DNA of 64,000 nucleotides, taken from the NCBI RefSeq assembly GCF_024218795.1, contig NZ_CP100400.1, positions 1,550,001-1,614,000 of the forward strand, in the 5' to 3' direction. Made by a program: the position numbers and the translations under genes. This document shows positions 7,048 through 17,474 of this stretch, in pieces; the first letter of the stretch is position 1, and every line of letters starts with the position of its first letter. The DNA is from Halorussus aquaticus (GTDB taxonomy: Archaea > Halobacteriota > Halobacteria > Halobacteriales > Haladaptataceae). A model generated the notes under the pieces. The model was not told the origin of the DNA. It did not search any database and was given only the letters and a program-made list of their open reading frames with translations.

Positions 7048-7710
7048 TTACGACCGGTCGAGAACGTCGGCCGCGGGCGTTCGGCGGCCGCAGCTCGGAC
7101 AGAACCCCCAGTCGGAGCGCACTTCGTCACCGCACTCACAGAAGACCCGTCGTGCGGCCTTCTCTCCGCAGTTCGGACAGTAGACGTGGTCGTCGGACAG
7201 CGACTCGCCGCACTGTCCGCAGGCGTTCTCTGTCTCGTCGGACGGCTCGCGGCCGTCCGCGTCGGCGGCGCGTTCCGGCGGGCGTCCGTCGGACAACTCG
7301 TCAGACGCGTTCGCGTGCCGGTCGGCCGACGCGTCGGTTCGGGCCGCATCGGTGTCGAGCGTCACGTTGACGTTCACGTCTCGTGCGCGCTCGCCGCGGT
7401 CGCGTTCGCGCTCGCTGGCCTCCCACGCGGCGAGTCGCTCGGCGACGAGTTCGTCCACGCGCTGCGCGAGGACGTCGTCGATCCTGTCGGCACTTCGGCG
7501 CTCGCCGTGGCCACCCTCCGAGGTGGTCGCTCGGCGTACGTCGCGCACGCGGTCCGCGTCCGCGGTGGGGCTGCGACGGGCGCGGTTCGCGTCGTCGGAC
7601 GCGTCGAGGTACTCGCGGAGCGCCTCCCGCATGATCTCGCTCTTCGAGGCGTCGCGGGCCTCGATGCGCTCGACCAGTTCCTCGTCCGCGCGGAACGTTA
7701 TCTTGCTCAT
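7048..7710 (-). CDS. cdrL: CdrL: ribbon-helix-helix regulator with double zinc ribbon
   Basis: A 220-residue protein with an N-terminal RHH domain (MSKITFRADEELVERIEARD...SEIMREALREYL, residues 1-40), a long charged and probably disordered middle, and two C-terminal zinc ribbons. The first ribbon is CGQCGES...CPNCGE and the second is CECGDE...CPSCGRR. This matches CdrL, the long partner of CdrS, described in haloarchaea as controlling the cdrS-ftsZ2 operon. It lies immediately upstream of that operon on the same strand. The ATG at 7710 is about 35 bases downstream of an AT-rich stretch near 7740-7750 (minus-strand GAAATAGG), consistent with a very short leader. Confidence 0.85.
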   Translation of the reverse strand: MSKITFRADEELVERIEARDASKSEIMREALREYLDASDDANRARRSPTADADRVRDVRRATTSEGGHGERRSADRIDDVLAQRVDELVAERLAAWEASERERDRGERARDVNVNVTLDTDAARTDASADRHANASDELSDGRPPERAADADGREPSDETENACGQCGESLSDDHVYCPNCGEKAARRVFCECGDEVRSDWGFCPSCGRRTPAADVLDRS

Positions 7711-7981: not shown

Positions 7982-8054
7982 CCGCCCTTAGCTCAGACTG
8001 GTAGAGCAGTCGACTGTAGATCGACTTGCCCCCCGTTCAAATCGGGGAGGGCGG
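7982..8054 (+). tRNA. tRNA-Tyr, anticodon GTA
   Basis: All arms can be drawn. The acceptor stem is CCGCCCT with AGGGCGG and begins with C1-G72, the archaeal tyrosine identity pair. The D arm is GCTC...GAGC. The anticodon stem GTCGA/TCGAC closes the loop CTGTAGA, giving anticodon GTA. The T arm is CCCCG-TTCAAAT-CGGGG. The gene has no intron and no encoded CCA. Its 3' end is repeated in degenerate form downstream, consistent with use as an integration site. Confidence 0.95.
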
Positions 8055-8060
8055 ATTTGT
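8042..8060. repeat. Copy 1 of island direct repeat (tRNA-Tyr 3' end)
   Basis: TCGGGGAGGGCGGATTTGT covers the end of the T arm, the acceptor 3' strand and 6 bases beyond. It matches copy 2 at 8153-8171 at 14 of 19 positions. Counting the preceding GTTCAAA, which is also shared with copy 2, the similarity starts at 8035. It is the probable intact attachment half. Confidence 0.55.
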
Positions 8061-8152
8061 TCTACAAATCCGATCGACGCGATTTGAGCCTGTGAGCCGC
8101 AGTCCCGGAACGGCCGAAGGCCGCACGCCCGGAACGTCTCACAACGTTCAAA

Positions 8153-8171
8153 TCGGAAAGAGCGGACTTCT
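8153..8171. repeat. Copy 2 of island direct repeat
   Basis: TCGGAAAGAGCGGACTTCT, preceded by GTTCAAA exactly as in the tRNA T arm (8146-8152). It differs from the copy at 11337-11355 at one of 19 positions. It lies about 100 bases past tRNA-Tyr, just before the truncated ATPase. Confidence 0.6.
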
Positions 8172-8199: not shown

Positions 8200-8628
8200 G
8201 TCCACGATTCAGAAACGCATTTTCCGTTCGTGGTCATCGACGAGGCCTCAACGCACTTCGACGCTCGGACCTACCGCCACGAGGTGGCGACCCAATGGAC
8301 GCCGCTCGCCAAGCGGTTCGCCAAGATTGGCGTGGACGTGTGCGGTCTCATCTGCCACTCCGGGAAGGACCTCCACCCCGAGGCGAAGCGGCTCTCGACA
8401 ATGCCGTACTTCAAGCGCGAGAAGAAGGTCGTGGACTTCTTCGAGCGGTGGCCTGCCGACGCCGATATGCCTGCTGACTCGTTGTTCGGTGGCTCCGTTG
8501 AGAATTTAGAGCCGACCGGGACCGAGTACGACCCTAACGACGCCGCGCCATGGTCGTGGGATTTGGAGTCCGATTTGTTCTCACTTGACCTCAACTGGTC
8601 ACAGCTACTCCATCGGATATCTTCCTAG
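8200..8628 (+). pseudogene. 3' fragment of a virus/plasmid-type P-loop ATPase
   Basis: About 142 codons resemble the C-terminal part of a DNA-translocase-like ATPase. FVVIDEAS is a Walker B motif. LICHSGKDLHPEAKRL and ENLEPTGTEYDPNDAAPWSWD resemble the conserved segments of the putative ATPases encoded by haloarchaeal pleolipoviruses and related plasmids. No Walker A motif or start codon precedes it; upstream the frame runs into the tRNA-derived repeat. It is therefore a truncated relic, joined to the repeat at about 8175-8200. Family assignment is from remembered motif patterns. The gene is GC-richer than the next one, suggesting separate origins. Confidence 0.6.
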
Positions 8629-8668
8629 ATGTAAAATAAGGATACAACTATCATTATGTTTCTCTAAT

Positions 8669-8680
8669 GCAGAAAGCTTA
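8669..8680 (+). promoter_or_regulatory. Putative TATA box of the HEPN gene
   Basis: CTTAATAATACG is centred about 32 bases before the ATG at 8707. A start site 25-27 bases downstream would leave almost no leader, the common haloarchaeal arrangement. The whole 8629-8706 spacer is AT-rich, so the box is not unique. Confidence 0.45.
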
Positions 8681-8706
8681 ATAATACGTGATACGATTAA
8701 GGTTGC

Positions 8707-10176
8707 ATGCAAGAAATTAACTTCGAACTAAGAAAGAAACTTAAACTGGCTGTTGAAGATTACACATCATATATTGAAGAGCAAGAAGATGGTAAAATAC
8801 CGACATCGGAATATTTTATTCCCGGAGAGAAGGGAATGGAGAAGCAAGAAATTCCTAATATGAGCAAACTACCAGAGTTTTATGAGGAGAAACGCCCCGA
8901 ATTCTTCCGTGATTTAGCAAAGTGGTTTATCACATCTGGAAACTCATATAATCAGAAAAGCATCTTTAAGAAGATCGAAAAAGAAGACCACATCTCATAT
9001 CAATCAATAAAGGCTGAAGAGGCTGAAATGGACCAAATCATCACACAATACGAATCTGACTTTAGTTCTTTTGCAGGTCAAGTATTAGACTATGCTGGAT
9101 CATATGACTTCGATAGTGATGATTACGATCGGGCCTTTGAGGATTTCTTTGGGGAGAGATATGATAAGAAAACTTGGGAAAAGCACATACTCCCAATAAG
9201 TAATTTAGAAGTTGAAGATTCCATTAGCTTAGAAGAAGACATTAGCTGGTTGAATAATGCAGATATAGAAAATATCTCCATAGAGATTGATGATATTACT
9301 GACTCCGAATTAGCCGCTATAAGATCTTCTCAAAACAATTTCGCCACGAAATCAACCTTACGAAGTTATGGCTACGATTGGAAGAGTATCATTAGAATCG
9401 AATTTAATGGCTCACTATTGACTAATAAATTGGTTGAATCGATAATAACCTCTTTGAGGCTATTTTCACCTACATCCTCAGAGATTCATTCTGGGAAAAT
9501 ATATATGATAGAAAAAACAGGTAAGACCTATCGAGAAGGAATTGAAGATTGCGTTGGTGTCTCTCCTATTGAAAACCCGACTTCAGGGGTAAACCCAAGA
9601 AATTGGCAAAGCCTCGATAACGAGAGTGAATTCCGGGAGTTTTGGTCGGAATACAGAAACTACCTAAATCTATCTCAAGCAGAAGAAAAAGCAGGTAAAC
9701 TTTCAGGGGCACTTCGTCGATTTAATGAATCTTATTTGAAGCACAATCTTGAAGACAAAATCGTTGATATAGTTATAGCGTTTGAATCTACTCTATTACG
9801 CGATGTACCGAAAAATTCCTCCTATTCTTTTCGACTAGGTTTGCGTGCTGGACTCCTACTTGAGGACTTTGTCGACTACGATCGCGAAGTGATACGCAAC
9901 TTGTTCAAGAACTTGTATTATACTCGTGGAGAGATTGTACATCAGGACCGTGAACTTACAGAAATACAACAAGATGACCAATTCCAGGAGATTGATGCGG
10001 TCTCGTCAGAAGAGAACATATCTGATTATAGACTCTTGCTTGCTAAATCGATAATCAAATATTTCGACCTTATTAACGAATACTCTCTAAGTATTACACA
10101 AATAAATCAAAAACTTGACCAAGCGGTTTGGGAAACTGCTTCGTTTGAATTGGGAAATAATGAATATGATGACTAA
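8707..10176 (+). CDS. AT-rich accessory protein with C-terminal Apea-like HEPN domain
   Basis: A 489-residue protein of foreign composition: codons end mostly in A/T, and it is rich in Lys, Ile and Asn, unlike every other gene in the window. Residues 1-330 are mostly polar and helical with no motif I recognise. The C-terminal part (about 335-465) fits the Apea-like HEPN pattern: IVDIVIAFESTLL, then SFRLGLRAGLLLE, then LYYTRGEIVH, where R407 and H412 make the R-x4-H signature of HEPN RNases. HEPN proteins of this kind act in abortive infection and anti-phage defence by cutting RNA. Position in a tRNA-linked island next to a phage-type ATPase relic supports a defence role, but target and trigger are unknown. 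Confidence 0.75.
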   Translation: MQEINFELRKKLKLAVEDYTSYIEEQEDGKIPTSEYFIPGEKGMEKQEIPNMSKLPEFYEEKRPEFFRDLAKWFITSGNSYNQKSIFKKIEKEDHISYQSIKAEEAEMDQIITQYESDFSSFAGQVLDYAGSYDFDSDDYDRAFEDFFGERYDKKTWEKHILPISNLEVEDSISLEEDISWLNNADIENISIEIDDITDSELAAIRSSQNNFATKSTLRSYGYDWKSIIRIEFNGSLLTNKLVESIITSLRLFSPTSSEIHSGKIYMIEKTGKTYREGIEDCVGVSPIENPTSGVNPRNWQSLDNESEFREFWSEYRNYLNLSQAEEKAGKLSGALRRFNESYLKHNLEDKIVDIVIAFESTLLRDVPKNSSYSFRLGLRAGLLLEDFVDYDREVIRNLFKNLYYTRGEIVHQDRELTEIQQDDQFQEIDAVSSEENISDYRLLLAKSIIKYFDLINEYSLSITQINQKLDQAVWETASFELGNNEYDD

Positions 10177-10254: not shown

Positions 10255-10752
10255 TTACTCGTGACCGCGAACAGCGTGAGCAATATCCTGAATCGCTCTA
10301 TCGGTCGACGCAAACGTGTATGTCGTATTCGGAGTTCTGAACTTTATCGTAGACCGTTTCAGAAACTGTCCAGCAACGAGAATTGCCAGGCTAATTAATC
10401 CGAAGAATACAATCGCTAGCATCAGGTCCGGTATTGAAGAATCACCTACGAACTCGGCAACCCCCGTAAGAAAAGCCAATACGCCGAAGCCTCCGCCCCA
10501 ATAGAGGAAACTTTTCGGATACGACGGTGCGCTGAACTCGATAGAATTGATTCCGTTGAGCGAGATATCAATTACATTCTCTCCTTGGACGTACACGACC
10601 CGATTCGGCGTACAGGCCAATTTTCCTTTTCTACTGTCTGAGACTGCATCAACGCTCTCGAACGCCTCGACCTCCTTCGTCACGGACTCGTTTTTCGCTA
10701 AATATGAGTCTAACTTCATCTCTAATCGCTCTATCCTCTCAAAACTAGCCAC
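10255..10752 (-). CDS. Membrane protein with split bacterial PH-like domain
   Basis: A 165-residue protein starting at GTG. An N-terminal helix (RIERLEMKLDSYLAKNESV) leads into a strand-rich segment, KGKLACTPNRVVYVQGENVIDISL, typical of bacterial PH (YdbS/YokE-like) domains. Two membrane helices follow: FLYWGGGFGVLAFLTGVAEF at about 84-103 and LMLAIVFFGLISLAILVAG at about 109-127. A second strand segment, STIKFRTPNTTYTFAS, completes the fold. PH-like domain proteins with helical hairpins occur in membrane stress and defence modules, but nothing here fixes a role. It starts 17 bases after the stop of the broken wHTH gene and lies inside the island; base composition is intermediate. Confidence 0.65.
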   Translation of the reverse strand: MASFERIERLEMKLDSYLAKNESVTKEVEAFESVDAVSDSRKGKLACTPNRVVYVQGENVIDISLNGINSIEFSAPSYPKSFLYWGGGFGVLAFLTGVAEFVGDSSIPDLMLAIVFFGLISLAILVAGQFLKRSTIKFRTPNTTYTFASTDRAIQDIAHAVRGHE

Positions 10753-11336: not shown

Positions 11337-11355
11337 TCGGAAAAAGCGGACTTCT
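11337..11355. repeat. Copy 3 of island direct repeat, distal boundary
   Basis: TCGGAAAAAGCGGACTTCT matches the copy at 8153-8171 at 18 of 19 positions, in the same orientation, 3.18 kb away. Immediately beyond it the GC-rich PepSY gene ends, so the repeat marks the change from island to chromosome. Confidence 0.65.
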
Positions 11356-11367
11356 TCACCTCACGAT

Positions 11368-11937
11368 TCACGTTCGAGGGACGGCGGCGACGTGAACCTC
11401 GCTCTCACCGTCCGGCGTCGAATACTCGACTTCGTAGACGAGCGTCGAGTTCTCGATTTCGAGCGACACCCGCGAGACGTTCGTCACCGTCGCGCTCCGG
11501 TTCCGGACGACTTCCACCGCTTCGACGGCCGAGCGCATCTCCGAGACGTTGCGGGTCCGATTGGCGGGCAGGAGACCCTCGGAAGCACCGCCCACGAGGA
11601 CGCCCCCGTTCTCGACGCTGCGTATCGCGCCGGTCCCGGCGTGGACGTCTACCTCGAACCGCGCCGCGTCCTCGCGCAGCACTTCGACCTCCCAGACCGG
11701 CGTCCCGTCCTTGCGTTCGCGTTCCACGCCGATGGCCGTCCCGTTCGTCTCGTTCTCGGCGGCGACCATCGCATCGACTGCGGTCACGTTTCGGGCGGTC
11801 TCTTCGACCGTCGGCGCGGGACTCGTGGCTCGCTCTTCCGACGAGTGGGACACGGCGCTCGGAGCGGCCGCTCCGACCGGTGCGCCGACGACCAGCAGGA
11901 CGGCGAGTCCGAGCACGAACCGTGGATAGCGTGTCAT
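11368..11937 (-). CDS. Secreted PepSY-domain protein
   Basis: A 189-residue protein with a Sec-type signal (MTRYPRFVLGLAVLLVVGAPVG, likely cleaved or anchored near residue 25). The mature part contains two PepSY-like units. The first runs from VTAVDAMVAAENETNGTAIG through WEVEVLREDAARFEVDVHAGTGAI. The second runs from SEMRSAVEAVEVVRNR through LVYEVEYSTPDGESEVHVAA. PepSY modules are extracytoplasmic and are thought to inhibit or bind peptidases or ligands; the specific role here is unknown. It is the first chromosomal-type gene beyond the island and lies convergent to it. Confidence 0.75.
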   Translation of the reverse strand: MTRYPRFVLGLAVLLVVGAPVGAAAPSAVSHSSEERATSPAPTVEETARNVTAVDAMVAAENETNGTAIGVERERKDGTPVWEVEVLREDAARFEVDVHAGTGAIRSVENGGVLVGGASEGLLPANRTRNVSEMRSAVEAVEVVRNRSATVTNVSRVSLEIENSTLVYEVEYSTPDGESEVHVAAVPRT

Positions 11938-15876: not shown

Positions 15877-16500
15877 GTGGCAGTATCGTTCGACCTGTTC
15901 GGAACCCTCGTCGAGGCAGAGCGCCCCGCCGACCCCGCCGAGGCCGTCGGCGCGGCACTCCGCGAGCGCGGCGTGGCGGTCCCCGACGACTGGGCCGACG
16001 CCTACCGCGAGGTACACGTCGACGCGCCCGAGGGGGCCGAGGTCCCGCTGATGGCTCACGTGAGCGCCGCGCTCGCCAGCAGGGGCGCCGAGGCCCCCGG
16101 CAACGCCGCGCGCCGGGCGGTCGTCTCGGCGTTCGACCCCGCGGTCGAGACCCGCGAGGGCGCGGTGGAGGCGGTCGAGGCCGCGAGCGAGCGCGGGCCG
16201 GTCGCCGTCCTCTCGAACTGCGCGGTGCCCCAACTCGCGCGCACGGCGCTGATTCGCTCCGACCTCGACCGCGAGGCGTTCGACGCCGTCGTCACCAGCG
16301 TCGCCTGCGGGTGGCGAAAGCCCGACCCGCGGGCCTTCGAGACCTGCGCCGACCGCCTCGGCGTCCCGGTCGCCGACCTCGTCCACGTCGGCGACGACCC
16401 CGAGACCGACGGCGGTATCGCGGACTGCGGGGGCGAGGCGGTCCTCGTCTCGGACGTGCCCCTGACCGCGTTCCCCGACTGGCTGGAGGGTCGGCGATGA
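15877..16500 (+). CDS. HAD-family phosphatase in the cobamide operon
   Basis: A 207-residue HAD hydrolase. Motif I is FDLFGTLVE near residue 5 (catalytic Asp pair D/..T form), motif II lies in VAVLSNCAVP, motif III Lys in CGWRKPDPRAF, and motif IV in HVGDDPETDGG. It begins at GTG and its stop overlaps cbiB by 4 bases (ATGA), so it belongs to the cobamide operon. No classical CobC or CobZ phosphatase is in the cluster. This HAD enzyme is therefore a candidate for the alpha-ribazole-phosphate or adenosylcobalamin-phosphate phosphatase step. That is inference from context; the fold alone allows many substrates. Confidence 0.8.
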   Translation: MAVSFDLFGTLVEAERPADPAEAVGAALRERGVAVPDDWADAYREVHVDAPEGAEVPLMAHVSAALASRGAEAPGNAARRAVVSAFDPAVETREGAVEAVEAASERGPVAVLSNCAVPQLARTALIRSDLDREAFDAVVTSVACGWRKPDPRAFETCADRLGVPVADLVHVGDDPETDGGIADCGGEAVLVSDVPLTAFPDWLEGRR

Positions 16501-17474
16501 ACCCGCCCGGCGGCGTCTCGGTCGGGGCGGCCGCCGCTGGTGTCCTACCGGCCGCCACGGTGGCGCTCGCGCTCGCGCTCGACGCCGCCGTCGCGGAACC
16601 GCCCCGGCGACTCCACCCCGTCGCGTGGTTCGGGTCGCTGGTCGCTCGCTTCGACCGCGAGTGGTCGCACCCGGCAACGGTCGGTCTCGCCGTCGCGGTT
16701 GCGCTCCCGCTGTTCGCGGCCGCGGCGGTCGCGCTGGCGGTCGGACTGGCGACTCGCCTCCACCCCGCCCTCGGCGTCGCCGCGGCCGGACTCGCCGTCT
16801 TCGCCGCGACGAGTCTCCGGATGCTCTCCTCGAAGGCCGCCGAGGTGGTCGCCGCGTCCGACGCCGACCTGCCGACCGCCCGCGAGCGCTTGCGGTGGCT
16901 GGCGGGCCGGGACGCCGCCGACCTCTCGGCGGGCGAGGTCCGGAGCGCCGCGGTCGAGAGCGCGGCCGAGAACCTCGCCGACGGCGCGGTGGCCCCGCTG
17001 CTGGCGTTCGCCCTGTTCGCCCCGTTCTCGCTGGCCGCCGGGGCCGCGGCCGCGGCGTGGGTCAAGGCGGTCAACACCCTCGACTCGATGCTGGGTTACC
17101 TCGACGTGTCCCACGGGACCGCGAGCGCCCGCCTCGACGACCTCACGATGTGGATTCCCGCACGCGCGAGTGCGGTCCTGCTCGCGCTCGCGGCGTCGCT
17201 CCCCGCCTCGCTCCTCGCCGCCCGCCGGTGGGCCGACGCTCCGCCCTCGCCCAACTCCGGGTGGCCGATGGCGACGCTGGCGGCGGTCGTGGACTCGCGC
17301 CTCGAAAAGCCGGGCGTCTACGTGCTGAACCCCGGCGGCGCTCTGCCGTCGGTCGAAACCTCGCGGGCCGCGATTCGCGTCGTCTCGGTCGCGGGCGTCC
17401 TCGCCTTCCTGTTCGCCGGACTCCTCGCGGGGGTCGCCACAGTGCTTCTGCCGGAGGTGGTCGCGTGGCTCTGA
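16497..17474 (+). CDS. cbiB: Adenosylcobinamide-phosphate synthase CbiB
   Basis: A 325-residue membrane enzyme that attaches aminopropanol phosphate to adenosylcobyric acid. Family marks are LALDAAVAEPPRRLHPVAWFG near the start, ESAAENLADGAVAPLLAFA in the middle, KAVNTLDSMLGY and RLDDLTMWIPAR around residue 190-220, and SPNSGWPMATLAAVVDSRLEKPG near the C-terminus. Five or so hydrophobic segments are visible. Its ATG overlaps the HAD gene stop, and its end overlaps the next gene by 10 bases. All later loop-assembly genes follow, so the operon order mirrors the pathway. Confidence 0.93.
   Translation: MNPPGGVSVGAAAAGVLPAATVALALALDAAVAEPPRRLHPVAWFGSLVARFDREWSHPATVGLAVAVALPLFAAAAVALAVGLATRLHPALGVAAAGLAVFAATSLRMLSSKAAEVVAASDADLPTARERLRWLAGRDAADLSAGEVRSAAVESAAENLADGAVAPLLAFALFAPFSLAAGAAAAAWVKAVNTLDSMLGYLDVSHGTASARLDDLTMWIPARASAVLLALAASLPASLLAARRWADAPPSPNSGWPMATLAAVVDSRLEKPGVYVLNPGGALPSVETSRAAIRVVSVAGVLAFLFAGLLAGVATVLLPEVVAWL

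Follow-up and report, generated by a model that had tools for sequence, protein, structure and literature searches.

On balance, we favour the view that the AT-rich gene at positions 8707-10176 of the window (the whole 64-kb stretch of Halorussus aquaticus DNA analysed here) encodes a HEPN ribonuclease of antiviral defence. The protein would work in the manner of ApeA and Tha, either alone or as an accessory to other systems, and falls into a separate family that existing models do not cover. This function is deduced from the predicted domains of the protein, the conservation of its putative catalytic motif and the genomic settings of its homologs.

The gene and its tRNA-Tyr island

The locus contains the following features.
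7982-8055, + strand: tRNA-Tyr (gta), an integration target; in locus L075 a complete 10.4-kb element with a homolog is likewise integrated at tRNA-Tyr
8145-8171, + strand: left junction of the strain-specific DNA, marked by a degenerate att-like repeat of the 3' end of the tRNA
8233-8628, + strand: relic of a pleolipovirus ATPase of the VP8/gp7 type, of which the C-terminal part is left (phrog_1979, E 1e-40)
8678-8684, + strand: TTAATAA, a TATA-box-like sequence with its centre about 26 nt upstream of the start codon
8707-10176, + strand: gene of the HEPN-type protein (489 aa), AT-rich and intact
8707-9606, + strand: conserved N-terminal region of mixed alpha/beta structure, covering about the first 300 residues (from conservation and AlphaFold2), the proposed sensor or regulatory part
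9703-10086, + strand: C-terminal HEPN-type helical domain, residues 333-460 (from alignment, AlphaFold2 and profile comparison)
9925-9942, + strand: Rx4H motif R407-G-E-I-V-H412 at the end of helix 393-413, predicted to be catalytic (from conservation and the ApeA alignment)
10255-10752, - strand: gene for a 165-aa protein of a viral family without assigned function (phrog_25924, E 1e-47)
11337-11369, + strand: right junction of the strain-specific DNA, marked by a degenerate att-like repeat of the 3' end of the tRNA

The open reading frame begins with an ATG that aligns with the start codons of many homologs and runs through 489 codons without an internal stop. Its GC content is 37.0% (GC3 34%), while the window as a whole has 67.1% and contains 1-kb bins below 61% GC only between 8 and 11 kb. 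The neighbouring coding sequence at 10255-10752 has 47.8% GC, and the earlier note's description of the gene as the only strongly AT-rich coding sequence in 64 kb was thus fair. The homologous genes are likewise AT-rich relative to their own loci in all eight cases checked. By its likeness to typical haloarchaeal promoters, the TTAATAA sequence possibly belongs to the promoter of a leaderless transcript.

A sister genome of the same genus (G026) is collinear with the window on both sides, as far as 8171 on the left and from 11337 onward on the right, with flanks at about 91%. Between these junctions it has about 1 kb of unrelated DNA instead of the 3.2-kb strain-specific stretch, which holds the ATPase relic, the AT-rich gene and the viral-family gene. 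Of the tRNA-end copies, the one on the right has decayed less in G026 than in the window, and no integrase is left in the window island. The relic shares 54-67% identity with VP8 of Halorubrum pleomorphic virus 1 and its counterparts in Haloarcula hispanica pleomorphic viruses 1 and 2 and in Humcor2. The tRNA-linked island beside a phage or plasmid ATPase relic, as described from the sequence alone, is thus real, the relic being the C-terminus of a pleolipovirus ATPase. In two further genomes of the genus (G021 and G014), the same viral relic (86-91% identity) lies near the equivalent tRNA-Tyr together with other cargo. Since the relic recurs there in several genomes with differing cargo, the tRNA-Tyr locus is a virus-derived turnover site. 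The window island is best read as a decayed member of a class of tRNA-integrated elements, because homologs of the gene sit in complete tRNA-bounded elements.

Two side observations concern the surroundings of tRNA-Tyr. The ATPase remnants near this tRNA in other genomes of the genus lie at L116:3156-3490 and L117:9430-9795, and the cargo in L116 comprises a pair of ParB-like genes plus two genes of unknown kind. In the window, a core gene conserved in the genus (7048-7710, - strand), located immediately upstream of the tRNA, encodes a protein that combines RHH, CdrL-like and double zinc ribbon parts.

Domain architecture and family conservation

The C-terminal part of the protein is very probably a HEPN domain, on four independent grounds: the invariant motif and acidic residues, the predicted fold, the profile alignment with ApeA and the HEPN names that NCBI has given to several relatives. 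AlphaFold2, run on an alignment of 30 sequences for the full protein and for the C-terminal domain alone, reached a pLDDT of 79.6 for the full model and of 85.9 (pTM 0.82) for the domain. It predicts helices at residues 348-360, 373-385, 393-413 and 434-459 (pLDDT 85-94), giving an all-helical domain in the range of about 100-130 residues expected of HEPN, with the characteristic acidic residue of an early helix represented by D350 and E360. The Rx4H motif (residues 407-412) is predicted at the end of the third helix and is followed by a loop and the long last helix; in HEPN ribonucleases, an Rx4-6H motif closes helix 3 and precedes the loop that leads to helix 4 (PMC3710099). The predicted helix order and motif position therefore fit the four-helix bundle on which the earlier note had staked its proposal, but Foldseek searches of the full and domain models against the PDB, and of the full model against the viral models of BFVD, gave no match at E <= 0.001. 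Sub-threshold Foldseek matches were discarded as junk, with TM-scores mostly below 0.25.

Profile comparison suggests a remote relationship of the domain to the HEPN part of ApeA. Against a reference of 15 archaeal proteins above the Pfam HEPN_Apea cut-off, hhalign placed the C-terminus of the family with Rx4H on Rx4H at scores of 26.9-29.5 and P values of 1.3e-3 to 4.6e-4, although the HHsuite probability of the same comparisons was just 19-33%. The broad family core gave the top score (29.5, P 4.6e-4). Controls with shuffled columns reached maxima of 16.6 and 14.5, the latter being the best of 60 shuffles for the broad family core, and comparisons with the N-domain, with reversed profiles and with DUF4145 scored 10-17. 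DUF4145 was rejected as the parent HEPN family, its score of 14.6 equalling background. These profile scores support a closer relationship of the domain to ApeA HEPN than to DUF4145, the one other HEPN family compared. Of the original label "Apea-like HEPN", the HEPN-type C-terminus holds, whereas the resemblance to ApeA is remote and no tested member of the haloarchaeal family is matched by Pfam HEPN_Apea (PF18739). A sub-threshold PF18739 match in locus L083 was set aside, as the protein concerned is a membrane protein of type II/IV secretion-like character. Neither the 489-aa protein nor any of the other members scanned is identified as HEPN by a model of Pfam, NCBIfam, PHROG or PADLOC, and the PADLOC 2.0 anti-phage models likewise lack a match to any of them. 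Weak and inconsistent matches from single-protein searches of Pfam, NCBIfam, PHROGs, PADLOC and PDB sequences (Mnd1, Vps53 and others) were rejected as composition noise.

Homology searches found members of the family in 5 of 28 genomes of the taxonomic family and in 31 of 392 genomes of the class, as well as in nine plasmid records. A second member, 29% identical, is encoded on another replicon of the source genome (contig C4, 150142-150822; L046:9591-11153). The C-terminal profile also matches 14 non-haloarchaeal genomes of the Halobacteriota, with E values from 5e-28 to 5e-6. The family spans at least 30 haloarchaeal genomes and distant archaeal relatives.

The motif proposed from the sequence, R407-GEIV-H412, is indeed encoded (R407 by codon 9925-9927, H412 by codon 9940-9942), and both residues are invariant in 33 aligned full-length haloarchaeal proteins, together with P32, R338, D350, E360 and Y452; E349 is conserved in at least 90%. 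Homologs without R-x4-H, which had been named as counterevidence, were not seen: all 33 proteins keep the motif, as does every distant-relative open reading frame that reaches it, mostly as RSxIVH or RNxxVH. The presence of an Rx4H alone is weak evidence, because 22% of shuffled versions of the 489-aa protein contain at least one by chance. Its invariance across 33 proteins, at only 21-31% identity of the homologs to the 489-aa protein, is by this alignment not a matter of chance. The domain is likely an active ribonuclease, since the motif is kept and HEPN families without activity usually lack it too (PMC3710099). An inactive HEPN fold with a substrate-binding or scaffolding role, or a helical domain outside HEPN that has an Rx4H by coincidence, would agree with the negative Foldseek searches and the shuffling frequency. 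We give such a domain only a slim chance, as R407 and H412 persist into distant relatives while the rest of the protein drifts, inactive families tend to lose the motif and hhalign lays it on the motif of ApeA.

The N-terminal region is predicted to consist of strands and helices in a mixed alpha/beta arrangement. It contains its own near-invariant residues in the 33-protein alignment (P52, Y129, G131, F140, A143, L250, P255 and R276) and is also found in several distant archaeal relatives (domain E values of 8e-6, 2e-5 and 1.5e-4; hhalign P 5e-9). Judged from these comparisons, it is a conserved domain that has been co-inherited with the C-terminal HEPN domain through the haloarchaeal family into distant relatives. 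Because both groups share it, the two-part architecture is old and stable and not a fresh fusion. The first reading of the sequence had found nothing recognisable in this part. Hhalign detected no likeness to the N-domain of ApeA (P 0.31 and 0.85), and the region is conserved family-wide instead of being confined to the one gene. It is a candidate for a new sensor domain.

Mobile elements and defence neighbourhoods of the homologs

Three homologs lie in complete integrated elements, each of which has an integrase at one of its two ends.
L048: tRNA-Thr, 36-bp perfect att repeats, 7.3 kb
L051: tRNA-Thr, 35-bp perfect att repeats, 5.3 kb
L075: tRNA-Tyr (the tRNA species of the window), 35-bp perfect att repeats, 10.4 kb

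A protein frequently found on plasmids and small integrative elements could serve a toxin-antitoxin or plasmid/virus-maintenance module as its toxin, that is, a HEPN ribonuclease that stabilises the mobile element instead of defending the host against other viruses. HEPN toxins are common in toxin-antitoxin systems (PMC3710099). However, the homologs have no constant partner or antitoxin gene: the neighbours vary, no neighbour cluster occurs in more than 6 of 37 loci, and locus L049 has just a tRNA-Gly followed by an integrase and the homolog. Moreover, single-domain toxins would not need a conserved N-terminal region of about 330 residues. We therefore regard a maintenance function as unlikely.

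Another explanation is that the gene serves its resident virus or element, as a superinfection exclusion factor or a viral host-takeover ribonuclease, and stems from the pleolipovirus whose relic adjoins it. The adjacent viral-family gene and the replication-type genes of the L075 element are in line with this explanation. Yet none of 50,697 phage records contains a homolog, pattern scans of genome and viral contigs, insensitive for so divergent a protein, found none either, and homologs occur in BREX-5 and restriction-modification loci. A service to the virus appears quite improbable, and since a provirus that excludes superinfection likewise acts in defence, the two readings overlap. As a separate observation, the 10.4-kb tRNA-Tyr element of L075 encodes two further Rx4H-type proteins (8401-9204, - strand, RADCAH; 16450-17277, - strand, RGEVVH) without a Pfam or NCBIfam name above cut-off, which by their motifs are possibly HEPN proteins too.

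The favoured reading as a defence ribonuclease draws on the neighbourhoods in which homologs occur. At two loci (L041 and L057), the homolog is located inside BREX-5 between pglZ and brxHII; on a plasmid of Halobacterium sp. BOL4-2, PADLOC models place PglX, PglZ and BrxHII around it, and the gene order in L057 is equal. Constant membership in BREX-5 was rejected, as a homolog is found downstream at only one of 30 sampled haloarchaeal BREX-5 pglZ loci, plus one plasmid. Given this frequency, and because the slot is otherwise filled by different genes, the HEPN gene is an optional add-on of BREX-5. The window locus has no BREX-5, and the source genome lacks a BREX-5 PglZ. Across the haloarchaeal BREX-5 loci L173-L202, the interval after pglZ contains the N-terminal part of a type IIG-like nuclease/methylase (recurrently), PglX, a uracil-DNA-glycosylase-like gene or the HEPN gene, or else BrxHII follows pglZ directly. 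This interval looks like an accessory slot of BREX-5.

Other homologs adjoin type I restriction-modification genes (HsdR/HsdM; L059, L063, L065) or lie near a DISARM-like methylase and BrxHII-like helicase (L061, L067, L068), GmrSD (L053, L061, L064, L068), an IetA-like AAA ATPase with DUF6414 (L038, L076, L079), PD-(D/E)XK and UvrD genes (L060, L069, L071) or McrBC-annotated genes (L042). In a leave-one-out comparison, defence markers were present at 7 of 20 homolog loci versus 1 of 20 control regions matched within the same contigs (Fisher one-sided P 0.022); as the markers were drawn from homolog loci, this test is biased toward the claim and is supportive, not independent. Integrases occurred at 4 of 20 homolog loci versus 0 of 20 control regions (P 0.053). 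A recognised defence neighbour is absent at many homolog loci. The mobile and defence-related setting that the earlier note had suspected, and the defence genes it had advised looking for, are thus borne out by integrated elements, plasmids and these neighbours. Its notion of a system made up of one protein suits the small integrated elements, but at two loci or more a BREX-5 operon includes the homolog as an additional gene.

Two gene associations in these loci deserve mention in their own right. The IetA-like AAA ATPase and DUF6414 genes (L079:10864-13466, L038:5218-7826, L076:10579-13136), sometimes divergent from the homolog, are a candidate two-gene defence module. A 574-aa DUF2254 membrane protein is encoded directly beside the homolog in the type I restriction-modification loci (L059:7626-9350, L065:7779-9503, L063:10868-12592) and is a possible partner of the HEPN protein in this subclade.

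Relation to known HEPN proteins and proposed mechanism

HEPN immune proteins as such are already well known, and the HEPN call is not new for this family either, as NCBI has named several relatives "HEPN domain-containing protein"; the family itself is absent from all libraries searched. AbiJ combines a variable N-terminal domain with a C-terminal HEPN domain and is found in defence settings. The haloarchaeal proteins share this general layout and setting with AbiJ/Abi_C and DUF4145 HEPN proteins, but no member scanned matches Abi_C or DUF4145. ApeA is similar in having about 450-540 aa, an N-terminal domain of about 300 residues and a C-terminal HEPN domain with Rx4H that aligns profile to profile, and in its proximity to restriction systems (PMC3710099). 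In contrast, beta strands are described as making up most of the N-domain of ApeA, whereas the mixed alpha/beta N-domain of the haloarchaeal family has other conserved residues, and the spacer from the acidic helix to Rx4H is shorter in the latter. Going by the Pfam model and the N-domain comparison, we do not claim the family as ApeA. According to the title of a 2026 preprint cited in PMC13405049, deoxydinucleotides activate ApeA; we found no evidence for such activation in the haloarchaeal family. Tha of Staphylococcus aureus prophages, a tail-activated anti-phage HEPN ribonuclease with the motif R265NSIMH270 (PMC11087260), is also a single protein borne on mobile elements, with a C-terminal HEPN domain and an undefined N-terminal part. 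With 301 aa and an N-terminal part half as long it differs in size, and this likeness by description implies no claim of kinship. HEPN genes of the pEK499_p136 and RloC families are coupled with Pgl/BREX operons (PMC3710099) and are similarly inserted among PglX, PglZ and helicase genes. These are different HEPN families, however, and the slot here lies between pglZ and brxHII of haloarchaeal BREX-5.

The mechanism that we propose is modelled on sensing and RNA cleavage as shown for Tha (PMC11087260) and as assumed for ApeA. The gene would have been acquired horizontally and left behind in a decayed pleolipovirus-derived island at tRNA-Tyr. Its N-terminal domain may silence the HEPN domain until a product of infection, either a viral protein or a nucleic-acid signal, is sensed. 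The HEPN domain, probably as a dimer, would then cleave host and/or viral RNA by means of R407 and H412, and the resulting growth arrest before virions spread would amount to abortive infection. On small integrative elements the protein may act solo, and in BREX-5 or beside restriction systems as an accessory effector. The window copy is presumed to be expressed, but after the loss of the integrase it could also be silent. More tentatively, the family could constitute a self-contained archaeal RNA-targeting immune family in which a new sensor is fused to a HEPN ribonuclease. Small tRNA-integrating elements would carry it from one haloarchaeon to another as their chief cargo, and BREX-5 and restriction operons would take it up as an effector, causing abortive infection in the manner of ApeA and Tha.

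Annotation pipelines that rely on Pfam or PADLOC will miss the family, because it is absent from both. The literature searched contains no description of a virus-triggered RNA-cleaving defence in haloarchaea other than CRISPR-linked effectors, in agreement with the supposition that such a system was undescribed there. With a single gene, an invariant and predicted catalytic residue pair, relatives in BREX-5 and relics of a known type of virus, the defence hypothesis is directly testable with pleolipoviruses and either Haloferax volcanii or Haloarcula hispanica as the host. The interest of the gene lies in an unmodelled archaeal HEPN family, in this single-gene hypothesis and in an optional place in BREX-5. 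If the hypothesis is true, archaea would possess an abortive-infection protein of the ApeA/Tha kind that has not yet been described.
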